Positions 30,768-34,727 of a stretch of DNA of 64,000 nt are shown piece after piece. Location of the stretch: the NCBI RefSeq assembly GCF_000832985.1, contig NZ_CP009920.1, forward strand, positions 2,722,501-2,786,500, in the 5' to 3' direction. The notes beneath the pieces were generated by a model. The model worked only from the letters and a program-made list of their open reading frames with translations. It made no database searches and was not told where the DNA came from. Position 1 is the first letter of the stretch; every line of letters begins with the position of its first letter. The DNA is from Priestia megaterium NBRC 15308 = ATCC 14581. GTDB lineage: Bacteria; Bacillota; Bacilli; Bacillales; Bacillaceae_H. A program made the position numbers and the translations under genes.

Positions 30768-30796
30768 TTGTGTTTAATAATAAAGATTTGTATAAT
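30768..30796 (+). promoter_or_regulatory. Predicted sigma-A promoter of the crt operon
   Basis: A TTGTGT -35 (30768-30773) and a perfect TATAAT -10 (30791-30796) are separated by 17 bp, about 38 bp before the crtN start. The -10 overlaps the first of three direct repeats, as expected for a repressed promoter. Confidence 0.65.
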
Positions 30797-30816
30797 GTTT
30801 GTATAACTATTGTATA
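30788..30816 (+). promoter_or_regulatory. Three 11-bp direct repeats (TTGTATA): probable CarH/LitR-type operator
   Basis: TTGTATA occurs at 30788, 30799 and 30810, exactly one 11-bp step apart. It covers the -10 region and start point of the crt promoter. MerR-family, adenosylcobalamin-dependent photoreceptors of the CarH/LitR group bind tandem 11-bp direct repeats of TGTACA-like sequence and repress carotenoid genes in the dark, and light-induced carotenoid synthesis under LitR has been described for B. megaterium. Assignment of this site to such a regulator is inference; no litR or carH gene lies in the window. Confidence 0.7.
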
Positions 30817-30833
30817 GGGTTAGGAGTGTATGT

Positions 30834-32366
30834 ATGCAAAAAAACGTAATCGTGATTGGAGCAGGTCCAGGAGGACTAGCGGCAGCGATGCTGTTAGCAA
30901 GTCATGGCTATAAAGTAGATGTATATGAAAAGCAAGGATACGTGGGCGGGCGAAATTCAGCGATTAAAATGTCGGGTTATACGTTTGATATGGGTCCTAC
31001 ATTTTTGAGCATGCCACAGATTTTTGAAGAATTATTTCAAGCTGCTAATCGCAATGCGCATGATTATATGGACTTAAAGCGTCTAAATCTCATGTATGAG
31101 CTTATTTTCGATGATGCGCAGATTCAGATGACGGATAACCATAAAAAGATGAAAGAAGAAATCGAACGTTTATACCCAGGAAACGGAGAAGGCTATGAGC
31201 GCTTTATGAAAGACACCGAAGCAAAGATGGCGGCTTTGCTGCCTTTATTGCAGGGCGAGATGGATCGTTTTCATCACTATTTAAAGCCTGAAGCAATTCG
31301 AGCACTGCCGCATTTATCCTTAGGTAAAACGCTCTATGATGTACTTGGCAAGTATTTCACTGATGAGAAATTGAAATTAGCTTTTACTTTTCAATCGAAG
31401 TACTTGGGAATGTCCCCTTGGGAATGTCCAGGAGCCTTTTCTATTTTATCGTTTATGGAACACGCTTACGGTATCTTCCATCCAATAGGAGGAGTAAACC
31501 AACTATCTCAAGCAATGGCAAAAGTAGTGGAAGAACATCAAGGGCACATCCACTTAAACCAAGGGGTCCAAAAACTATGGATTGAAAATAAGAGAGTAAA
31601 AGGAATTATTCTAGAAAATGGAGAGCGAATAGGGGCAGACGACGTCATTATCAATGGAGATTTTGCTCATGCCATGACGAATTTAATAGATGAAGGTACC
31701 CTTAAAAAATATGCAGTTAAAAAACTTGAAAAGAAAAAATACTCTTGTTCTACTTTCATGATTTATCTAGGCATAGACAAACAGTACAAAGACCTGCCTC
31801 ATCACACGATTGTGTTCGCTGAAGATTATAAAAAAAATGTAGAAGAGATCACAAAAACGCTAGCTCTTTCAGAGGACCCTTCTATCTACATCCAAAACCC
31901 AGGTGTAACAGACCCAACTTTAGCACCGGAAGGAAAGTCTGCTCTTTATATTTTAGCGCCGGTTCCAAATAATTTCAGCGGTGTAAACTGGGATGAAAAA
32001 CAAAAAGATTTTCGGGATGCAGTATTAAAAATTGTAGAAAAGAAAACGGGTTTCAAGGATTTAGAGAGTCATATTGAAGTTGAAAAAATCATTTCACCAA
32101 AGCAGTGGGAAGAAGACGTGCTGGTCTATAAAGGAGCGACATTTAACCTTGGACATCAGCTCACTCAAATGATGGTGCTGCGTCCGCATAATAAATTTGA
32201 AGAATTAGAAAACTGCTGGCTAGTTGGAGGAGGAACTCATCCAGGAAGCGGTCTACCAACTATTCTGGAATCATCTCGCATTACGACAAAGCTCATCTTA
32301 AAAAGAGACGGACAATTACTGAATGAGCCGTTTAAAACCATGAAGGAAATGGAGAGTGCATTATGA
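30834..32366 (+). CDS. crtN: CrtN-type carotenoid (dehydrosqualene) desaturase
   Basis: A 510-residue FAD-dependent desaturase of the phytoene/diapophytoene family. The dinucleotide motif is VIGAGPGGLAAAMLLASHG (residues 6-24), followed by VYEK..VGGRNS and the GPTFLSMP segment. The C-terminal family motif GGGTHPGSGLPTILESSRIT is near residue 464. It probably introduces the double bonds of 4,4'-diapolycopene or diaponeurosporene. The ATG at 30834 has TTAGGAGTG upstream; an earlier ATG at 30810 lies within the operator repeats and lacks a ribosome site. It overlaps the next gene by 4 nt and is the first gene of the crt operon. Confidence 0.88.
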   Translation: MQKNVIVIGAGPGGLAAAMLLASHGYKVDVYEKQGYVGGRNSAIKMSGYTFDMGPTFLSMPQIFEELFQAANRNAHDYMDLKRLNLMYELIFDDAQIQMTDNHKKMKEEIERLYPGNGEGYERFMKDTEAKMAALLPLLQGEMDRFHHYLKPEAIRALPHLSLGKTLYDVLGKYFTDEKLKLAFTFQSKYLGMSPWECPGAFSILSFMEHAYGIFHPIGGVNQLSQAMAKVVEEHQGHIHLNQGVQKLWIENKRVKGIILENGERIGADDVIINGDFAHAMTNLIDEGTLKKYAVKKLEKKKYSCSTFMIYLGIDKQYKDLPHHTIVFAEDYKKNVEEITKTLALSEDPSIYIQNPGVTDPTLAPEGKSALYILAPVPNNFSGVNWDEKQKDFRDAVLKIVEKKTGFKDLESHIEVEKIISPKQWEEDVLVYKGATFNLGHQLTQMMVLRPHNKFEELENCWLVGGGTHPGSGLPTILESSRITTKLILKRDGQLLNEPFKTMKEMESAL

Positions 32367-33820
32367 GAACAGCAATTGTTGGAGGCGGCATAGGCGGTTT
32401 GATTACCGCTTTGTTATTAAGCAAACGAGGATTTTCTGTTGATATTTTCGAAAAAGAAAACAAGCTTGGCGGCCGGTTGGCGTTTGTAGAAAAAGACGGT
32501 TATAAAATTGATGAAGGTCCCACGATTGTCTTACTGCCTTTAATGCTTGAACGTATTTTAGATGAAGCAGGCATTTCCGCTTCTCAATATGAACTAATAC
32601 GCTGTGATCCACTTTATGATATTCATTTTCCAGACGGTACGACCTATACAAAAAAAGCGATTGAAAAAGATCAGTTAGAGGAAATTAGCCGTTTGTTCCC
32701 AGGCGAACAGCAAAACTACCGGCGTTTTATGACTGAATTAAAAAAGCGATTTGAATTAGGAAGTAAGGCATTTTTGGAAAAAACATTTGTAAATAAACGA
32801 GATTTTTGGACATGGCAAAACATCAAGGCATTAAAAAAAATGGATGCAAATAAATCAATGAGAAAATTTGTTTCAACGTATTTCCGTGATGAACGTCTAG
32901 TAGATGCCTATTCCCTGCAATCTCTCTATATTGGAGGAAATCCTTATTCGGCGCCAGCTATTTATTCCCTTGTTCCTTACAGTGAGCATGCTCATGGCAT
33001 CTATTACGTAAAAGGCGGATACGCAAGTCTTGTGCCACTTCTTGAAAAGGCGCTGATAGAGCAAGGTGTAAACATTCATTTGAATAAAGCGGTTCAAGAG
33101 CTTTCTATATCAGGAGACAAAACGGAAGGGGTTATTGTTGACGAAAAACTTTATTCATTTGATCAAGTTGTTTTAAATGGCGACTTTCCTAATATGGCGA
33201 AAATTGCTCGAAAAAAAGAAAAGAAGTATGTGCCTTCGTCCAGCTGTTTACTGCTTTATCTTGGTTTGAAGAGAAAATATGATCATCACAATGTACATCA
33301 ATACTTTATGGGCAATGATTTAGCTAAACATATGGAAGCAGTGTTTAAGCATAAAACGATTCCTGAAGATCCCGCTATTTATACATTTAATCCCTCTGTT
33401 ATTGATCCATCGTTAGCCCCTGAAGGGAAAAGTGTGCTATATGCACTTATACCGGTTCCATCAGGTGGCCACATTGATTGGAGCAATCAGCAAGATTTTG
33501 TTGATGGAATCATTCGAACTTTAGAAGAAAAAGGGTTTGATGAGCTTCGTAAAAAAATAGAGTGGGTAAAAGTACGCACGCCAAATGATGCTCAAGAATT
33601 TGGACTTTACGAAGGAGGAAGCTTTGGTATTGCTCCTGAGCTATTTCAATCAGGCGTATTCAGACCCCAGTACCAGCCGTACGAATATAAAAATGTTTTT
33701 GCGGTCGGAGCATCTATTCATCCAGGCGGAGGCGTGCCAATTGTTATGCAAGGAGCAAAAATGTTAGCTGATCATCTTATTGAACAATCATCTGTTCAAA
33801 CGGTTGCAAAGCTTTCTTAA
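32363..33820 (+). CDS. CrtN/CrtP-like carotenoid oxidoreductase (second paralogue)
   Basis: A 485-residue FAD oxidoreductase of the same family as its upstream neighbour. The N-terminal motif is VGGGIGGLITALLLSKRG (residues 5-22), with IFEKENKLGGRL and DEGPTIVLLP. The C-terminal motif is GASIHPGGGVPIVMQGAK. In other Bacillaceae, C30 carotenoid clusters carry a desaturase (CrtNa) and a second paralogue (CrtNb/CrtP) that oxidises the terminal methyl group. This gene may be that oxygenase or a second desaturase; sequence alone does not decide. Translation is coupled through an ATGA overlap. Confidence 0.82.
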   Translation: MRTAIVGGGIGGLITALLLSKRGFSVDIFEKENKLGGRLAFVEKDGYKIDEGPTIVLLPLMLERILDEAGISASQYELIRCDPLYDIHFPDGTTYTKKAIEKDQLEEISRLFPGEQQNYRRFMTELKKRFELGSKAFLEKTFVNKRDFWTWQNIKALKKMDANKSMRKFVSTYFRDERLVDAYSLQSLYIGGNPYSAPAIYSLVPYSEHAHGIYYVKGGYASLVPLLEKALIEQGVNIHLNKAVQELSISGDKTEGVIVDEKLYSFDQVVLNGDFPNMAKIARKKEKKYVPSSSCLLLYLGLKRKYDHHNVHQYFMGNDLAKHMEAVFKHKTIPEDPAIYTFNPSVIDPSLAPEGKSVLYALIPVPSGGHIDWSNQQDFVDGIIRTLEEKGFDELRKKIEWVKVRTPNDAQEFGLYEGGSFGIAPELFQSGVFRPQYQPYEYKNVFAVGASIHPGGGVPIVMQGAKMLADHLIEQSSVQTVAKLS

Positions 33821-33878: not shown

Positions 33879-34727
33879 ATGATGAACATTTCGTTAGACA
33901 AAGCGTACAATCAGTGTGAAGAAATTATTAAAGAAAACTCAAAAACGTTTTACAAAGCTTTTTCCATGCTGCCGTCAAAACAAAGAAAGGCAGTATGGGC
34001 AGTATATGCATTTTGCCGTCAAGTCGATGATATTGTAGATGAAGGATGCAACCCTGAAATAGAGCTGCAGCAATTCGAATCAGAATTTGCCCGATTTAAA
34101 AATGGAGAACTATTAAACGAAAGCGCCATGTGGGTAGCTCTGCGCAATGTATTTGAACAATATGAGATGAATGTTCAAGCGTTTGATGATATGATTACCG
34201 GCCAGAGAATGGATTTAGTAAAAAAAGAATACGATACGCTTGATGAAGTGAAAACATACTCTTATCATGTAGCGAGTACGGTAGGGTTAATGCTTTTACC
34301 GATTTTAGCTCCAACTACTCATAAAGAATTAGAAGAAGAAGCAATTGCATTAGGCATTGCGATGCAGCTGACCAACATTTTAAGAGACGTTGGGGAAGAC
34401 TTAGAGCGAGGGCGCATTTATTTACCGAAAGATCTTATGAATTCTTACGGATATACGCGCATGCTATTAGAGAACCGGTGGGTCACTTCTGAATTTATAG
34501 AGATGTGGGAGCACCTGGCCAAAGAAGCGGAGATGTATTATATAAAAGGACTTCAGTCGATTCATAAATATCCGGTCGCTTCTCGTTTGCCTCTTACAGG
34601 AGCGGCGCATCTATACCGAGCGATTCTTGATAAAATTCGAAAAGAAAATTATGACGTATTTACAGAAAAGCACTTTGTCACAAGTCAAGTGAAAAAGAAA
34701 ATTATGACATCTATTTCTACGGGGTAA
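33879..34727 (+). CDS. crtM: Squalene/phytoene synthase family: probable dehydrosqualene synthase
   Basis: A 282-residue all-helical prenyl synthase that would condense two farnesyl diphosphates. Both Asp-rich motifs are intact: DDIVDE (about residues 50-55) and the second NILRDVGEDLERGRIYLP (about 165-182). The YSYHVASTVGLML segment is typical. It is encoded where B. subtilis has yisP, a family relative known as a farnesyl diphosphate phosphatase. The intact motifs and the two adjacent crtN genes favour a true C30 carotenoid synthase here. AAAGGGG precedes the start; a second ATG follows immediately. Confidence 0.87.
   Translation: MMNISLDKAYNQCEEIIKENSKTFYKAFSMLPSKQRKAVWAVYAFCRQVDDIVDEGCNPEIELQQFESEFARFKNGELLNESAMWVALRNVFEQYEMNVQAFDDMITGQRMDLVKKEYDTLDEVKTYSYHVASTVGLMLLPILAPTTHKELEEEAIALGIAMQLTNILRDVGEDLERGRIYLPKDLMNSYGYTRMLLENRWVTSEFIEMWEHLAKEAEMYYIKGLQSIHKYPVASRLPLTGAAHLYRAILDKIRKENYDVFTEKHFVTSQVKKKIMTSISTG

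Follow-up and report, generated by a model that had tools for sequence, protein, structure and literature searches.

A likely LitR/CarH operator at the crt promoter of Priestia megaterium and similar repeat arrays in front of mgsR in related genomes

Dark binding of DNA by AdoCbl-loaded tetramers and light-driven cleavage of the Co-C bond are established for CarH proteins. The primary studies of CarHBm/LitR from B. megaterium QM B1551 are reportedly those of Takano 2015 and Fernandez-Zapata 2018. MgsR, the other protein of concern here, senses redox state and activates stress genes together with RNA polymerase.

In excerpts of PMC9304148, B. megaterium CarH operators consist of four tandem 11-bp repeats, or of three and a pseudorepeat, over the -35 or the -10 element, and the CarH signature comprises Wx9EH, contacting the Ado group, and D/ExHx2G/P-x41-SxT/V-x22-27-GG, binding B12. 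That CarH repeats carry TnnACA is stated both there and in the excerpts of PMC8156234. As for MgsR, the excerpted part of PMC7235348 describes the B. subtilis protein as a redox-sensitive Spx paralogue with its CxxC at residues 13-16 (10-13 in Spx), and its gene as induced exclusively by sigma-B and positively autoregulated.

The crt promoter array

The features of the locus are listed below by their position in the window, i.e. the whole 64-kb stretch of P. megaterium DNA that was analysed. The gene names crtN and crtM used for the genes downstream of the array, as well as yqgY for the DUF2626 gene beside mgsR, are those that we take to be appropriate.

30768..30773, + strand: weak -35 candidate TTGTGT, with a 17-bp spacer to the -10 element and 3/6 matches to TTGACA
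30778..30783, + strand: possible pseudorepeat core TAATAA, preceding the core of repeat 1 by one step of 11 bp
30788..30794, + strand: putative operator repeat 1, TTGTATA; core TGTATA kept in 7/7 genus genomes with intact crtN, this one included
30791..30796, + strand: perfect -10 element TATAAT, sharing bases with repeat 1 and conserved in the same seven genus sequences
30799..30805, + strand: putative operator repeat 2, TTGTATA; core kept in 7/7
30810..30816, + strand: putative operator repeat 3, TTGTATA; core TGTATA kept in 7/7, the first base being A instead of T in G002
30834..32366, + strand: CrtI-family desaturase gene (crtN type), first gene after the array, ATG at 30834 (TIGR02734 crtI_fam, E 3.8e-148)
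32363..33820, + strand: second CrtI-family desaturase/oxidase gene, with a 4-bp overlap with the first (TIGR02734, E 8.6e-106)
33879..34727, + strand: squalene/phytoene synthase gene (crtM type; PF00494, E 2.2e-71)

The first-pass annotation had reported three TTGTATA copies starting at 30788, 30799 and 30810, at exact 11-bp steps, and reading of the sequence bears this out. Nowhere else in the 64 kb do three copies of a 7-mer follow each other at step 11, no other such trio occurs in the window at steps 8-14, and none of 100 dinucleotide shuffles of the window contains a step-11 trio. The exact TTGTATA trio is unique in the 5.75-Mb genome, where the reversed control of the pattern has no match at up to three mismatches. 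Single TTGTATA copies are in mild excess, with 17 in the window for a shuffle mean of 10.5 and 17 being reached in 5 of 100 shuffles. The same annotation rightly had the first copy sharing bases with the -10 element and all copies preceding crtN.

Judged from the position of the -10 element, the transcription start would fall under repeats 2 and 3. The promoter was not called by the promoter scan because its -35 candidate has three of six matches while the scan needs four; in G005 and G008, TTGTCA stands at this position. Since the reverse complement of TnnACA is TGTnnA, the published core is the one seen at the crt array, and the putative CarH/LitR operator displays tandem 11-bp repeats, a TGTnnA (TnnACA) core and overlap with the -10 element. 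Scored as four repeats from TAATAA at 30778 plus the three full copies, the array reaches 14/16, and we infer that the TAATAA pseudorepeat is used as part of the operator.

Among the 10 genomes of the genus, this one included, LitR is present in all 10 and intact crtN orthologues (75-100% identity) in 7, while G004 has crtN pieces only and G003 and G006 have no crtN orthologue. In all seven genomes with intact crtN, a perfect array of three TGTAYA cores precedes crtN at 17-20 bp from its aligned start, a conservation that favours the operator reading of the first-pass annotation, and a two-mismatch version adjoins the crtN pieces of G004. Looser searches of the 10 genomes were noisy, with 96 matches to the pattern at up to three mismatches against 33 for the reversed control, and 34 against 10 for four repeats with one mismatch.

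Some individual sites of this genome deserve mention. The dnaA-upstream site C6:2120455-2120495 (L126 3956-3996), with three TTGTACA at 9- and 11-bp steps, was rejected as not being a clean array; matches like it occur in G001, G003, G007 and G009, and one lies near a dnaA-like ORF in G006 (dnaA by Pfam). Site C6:4766864 (three mismatches, also seen in three other genus genomes) was dropped as it is located inside coding sequence. Site C1:7997 is a 3-mismatch match in this genome.

The LitR/CarH homologue of P. megaterium

The search of the whole genome for a MerR-family protein with a B12-binding domain, which the first-pass annotation had put forward as a check, gave a LitR/CarH homologue of 303 aa at C6:1175694-1176602 (- strand), with the MerR_1 (PF13411), B12-binding_2 (PF02607) and B12-binding (PF02310) domains all over their Pfam cut-offs and with Thermus CarH as its best matches in the PDB comparison. 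Searching the genome with this protein gave six matches, full-length for LitR itself only. The residues of the CarH signature are in place: in the Wx9EH motif W143, E153 and H154, and in the B12 motif (ExHx2G-x41-SxT-x26-GG) E188, H190, G193, S235 and T237, are invariant in 8/8 aligned homologues, and the GG lies at 264-265, its first G missing in one of the eight (L054). The NCBIfam CarH equivalog NF052513 is the best family for the protein (E 1.5e-38), at 132.7 bits for a cut-off of 400; the protein is therefore designated a CarH/LitR-family homologue by its motifs, and not an NCBIfam CarH equivalog. Our guess is that this model covers a narrower group.

There are eight B12-domain matches in this genome, of which four had their ORFs read, the other four lying in open frames of 589-1147 aa. 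The B12-domain proteins of L004 and L008 were rejected because Pfam finds no MerR domain in them. Together with L005, these loci make up three modules in which a B12-domain protein of 212-221 aa is followed by a partner of 206-274 aa, the partner carrying a STAS domain (Pfam) in L005 and having no Pfam match in L004; the modules are possible further B12-based sensors.

Upstream of litR itself, TGTnnA recurs four times without mismatch in steps of 11 bp (16/16). Among the best 30 of 101 litR upstreams, measured from the aligned start and not from a verified start codon, five have four perfect repeats and 12 reach 14/16, a score attained by 0 of 1200 shuffled litR upstreams. The remaining 18 score below 14, with G002, G005, G006 and G008 inside the shuffle range.

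Arrays at mgsR and across related genomes

Further copies of the three-repeat array had also been proposed as something to look for genome-wide, and one was found. At up to three mismatches, the only other place in the genome that fits the crt trio pattern is C6:1354999-1355038, with one mismatch in its best register, located 44 bp upstream of mgsR and extending further with more repeats. The product of this gene exceeds the TIGR01617 Spx/MgsR cut-off and has its CxxC at residues 12-15. It just passes the Spx subfamily NF002459 (132 vs 123 bits) and fails the SpxA equivalog, whereas a 44%-identical Spx paralogue from the same genome passes both strongly. A DUF2626 gene (Pfam) neighbours mgsR, which presumably fits the gene order of B. 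subtilis. The gene may be the orthologue of B. subtilis mgsR, with which family, CxxC position and this neighbour agree. Within the genus, the mgsR array is found in 9/9 genomes with mgsR (at 17/18 in G004), including G003, which has litR and the mgsR array without a crtN orthologue, while Spx-paralogue upstreams score only 12-13 in 10/10 genus genomes. G006 has neither crtN nor mgsR orthologues; in this genome, a four-to-five-copy TTGTATA-type array adjoins a GntR/FCD regulator gene (L164 from 1501).

The comparison was then extended to 150 related genomes, with LitR presence defined by a homologue at E <= 1e-30 (101/150) and mgsR presence by E <= 1e-36. All 62 mgsR upstreams were scored and no rows were dropped. 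At a cut of 16/18, chosen after seeing scores and shuffles together, an array precedes mgsR in 51 of 57 LitR-positive genomes and in 0 of 5 LitR-negative ones (Fisher 7e-5, uncorrected for shared ancestry), the LitR-negative set consisting of only five genomes from three families; 1 of 1240 shuffles reaches this score. A cut of 17 gives 50/57, 0/5 and 0/1240, respectively. The six LitR-positive genomes that have mgsR without a good array are G014, G015, G052, G060, G097 and G126. By family, at least one mgsR array is found in 19 of 21 LitR-positive families and in none of the three families of the LitR-negative genomes, and within family f44 the LitR-positive G096 has the array (17/18) while the LitR-negative G058 and G125 do not. 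Furthermore, mgsR itself co-occurs with LitR, being present in 57/101 LitR-positive vs 5/49 LitR-negative genomes.

Exact arrays of three TGTAYA cores occur in 49 of the 150 genomes (reversed control, 0/150), and a LitR homologue is present in every one of these 49 (hypergeometric 1.9e-11) as well as in all 37 that lie outside the family of P. megaterium (1.1e-9), both values being uncorrected for shared ancestry. Conversely, 52 of the 101 LitR-positive genomes are without an exact array. Eight of the 49 genomes with exact arrays show a stop within the aligned LitR stretch, the open frame still being of 300-360 aa in seven of them; in the eighth, G118, the open frame of the homologue is split in two. 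The homologue of G049 has 35% identity only.

By row count over the 150 genomes, there are 73 exact sites: 41 at mgsR, one of them beside an mgsR remnant (G013), 22 at crtN and 10 elsewhere. At these ten other sites, the array lies in G033 between divergent genes for a photolyase and a flavin oxidoreductase (L250 1654-1681), and in G043 at a carotenoid-synthesis gene (PF04240) and one encoding PAS-GGDEF. The others are at a litR-like gene in G049, DUF4397 genes in G148 and G101, DegV/Dak2 in G127 and, by likeness, G098, an SDR gene in G129, a GntR gene in G006 and, in G034, a place whose neighbouring ORF is without Pfam match. In the named genome collection, the exact mgsR-type pattern was found in five stretches, from four Bacillus-group genomes and one Arenicellales metagenome-assembled genome. 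Within the genus, a one-mismatch four-repeat array stands just before a DUF4397 gene in G002, G004, G005 and G008 (L127 4050-4100; L031, L084, L090), and in L127 a gene with a sortase domain follows it (both by Pfam).

The mgsR upstreams were also scanned for a sigma-B-like site (GTTT-N13-16-GGG[TA]A). Such a site is found in 4/5 LitR-negative upstreams and in 4/51 LitR-positive upstreams with an array, for 24/3100 shuffles, and in 0/6 LitR-positive mgsR upstreams without an array (1/6 with a looser pattern). These four array-bearing cases are G035, G078, G111 and G139, where the array overlaps a TATAAT close before the start of mgsR as well as the GTTT half of the sigma-B-like site.

Proposed regulation and comparison with described systems

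The arrays lie near gene starts and are conserved, and no exact array was seen in a genome lacking a LitR homologue. We propose that the crt array is a LitR/CarH operator, dark-repressing and released by light, and that the small regulon of the same regulator includes mgsR, a reading to which we give a probability of about 0.85. In the dark, AdoCbl-bound LitR tetramers would occupy the 11-bp repeats that span the -10 element and the expected start and block RNA polymerase; in the light, the Co-C bond would break, the LitR oligomer would fall apart and crt would be transcribed. By homology, the CarH mechanism probably applies to the LitR of P. megaterium. The same arrays would mark the LitR regulon, which would comprise litR itself in several genomes and, as its most frequent member in the order, mgsR. 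Light would then release pigment synthesis and MgsR together. As far as mgsR is concerned, binding by LitR, dark repression and light induction are deduced from the sequences; the new prediction of this work is that in a large part of the order LitR keeps mgsR repressed in darkness.

Among other explanations, the one that survives best, while still unlikely, is that the target of the arrays near mgsR is its divergent neighbour, either the DUF2626 gene yqgY or an intervening HTH gene. The arrays do lie in the intergenic region between divergent genes, but in 40 genomes a perfect array is found 36-121 bp from the aligned mgsR start, which may be off by up to three codons, and the neighbour varies, yqgY being about 0.9 kb away in several genomes. 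The overlap of the array with the sigma-B-like site and TATAAT by mgsR in the four genomes named above likewise speaks for mgsR as the target. In some genomes mgsR and yqgY are separated by an HTH-regulator gene transcribed divergently from mgsR (L035 1642-2340, HTH_20; L157 1651-2346; L158 1596-2342), and in L158 the array is retained beside an mgsR remnant only.

We consider it a shade less probable again that LitR operates at crt (and litR) only and that the mgsR arrays bind another regulator with a similar 11-bp repeat. While the six LitR-positive genomes with mgsR and no good array would fit such a regulator, the core and the 11-bp step are the same at mgsR and crt, every genome with an exact array has a LitR homologue, none of the five LitR-negative genomes has an array at mgsR, and the contrast within family f44 follows LitR. 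Finally, a chance run in an AT-rich promoter, to which the merely mild excess of single TTGTATA copies might have pointed, can be dismissed given the absence of the trio from all shuffles, its conservation in the seven genus genomes with intact crtN and the restriction of exact arrays to genomes with LitR.

The claim of the first-pass annotation that the array is a likely CarH/LitR operator is strengthened by the homologue, the conservation in 7/7 and the co-occurrence in 49/49. We lean, by a small measure, towards a bolder view, namely that in much of the order LitR is first of all an mgsR regulator and only secondly a carotenoid regulator, and that it took the mgsR promoter over from sigma-B. 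The excess of exact sites at mgsR over crtN (41 vs 22) was counted for LitR as the foremost mgsR regulator, and the sigma-B-like sites, frequent in LitR-negative upstreams, rare in those with an array and there overlapped by it, were counted for the takeover, while their absence from the six LitR-positive upstreams without an array was counted against it.

Searches of the open-licence literature gave no match that links MgsR with CarH or LitR, a link that may still be published, and no mention of Spx among the matches listed for CarH. If the mgsR sites are real, LitR/CarH would tie a redox-stress regulator in many families to light and to B12 status, the persistence of LitR in G003, without crtN, would be explained, and the picture of CarH as a switch for pigment would change. 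From the distribution of the arrays, the influence of light in these bacteria may extend beyond pigment.

At crt the operator is nothing unusual, its kind having been described for this species group before, a point absent from the first-pass annotation. Its assignment of tandem 11-bp repeats to CarH/LitR agrees with the TnnACA repeats and CarHBm forms in the excerpts of PMC9304148, and light control of carotenoids by LitR in B. megaterium, which it mentioned, accords with excerpts of PMC9304148, PMC8156234 and PMC6739363. CarHBm/LitR of B. megaterium QM B1551 is, in these same excerpts, a MerR-B12 protein exerting light control of crt, like the protein described here. The operator forms given for it in PMC9304148, with four repeats or with a pseudorepeat beside three and with placement over the -35 or the -10 element, match the present arrays, and crt (14/16, TAATAA and three repeats) and litR (16/16, four repeats) probably represent these two published forms. 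The excerpts of the three papers mention no mgsR target, whereas an mgsR array is found here; the reach of the operator beyond carotenoid genes looks new. CarHTt of Thermus thermophilus, a homologous protein, likewise has three tandem 11-bp repeats with TnnACA (PMC9304148 and PMC8156234, in excerpt), but there the -35 element is included in one repeat (PMC9304148), while here the array covers the -10 element and the bases that follow. B. subtilis MgsR resembles the P. megaterium protein by family and position, both being of the Spx-paralogous ArsC family with CxxC at 13-16 vs 12-15 here (PMC7235348, in excerpt). On the other hand, B. subtilis mgsR is induced by sigma-B only, with positive autoregulation, according to the same excerpt, whereas here a LitR-type array stands in front of mgsR, and of 51 upstreams with such an array four show a sigma-B-like site.
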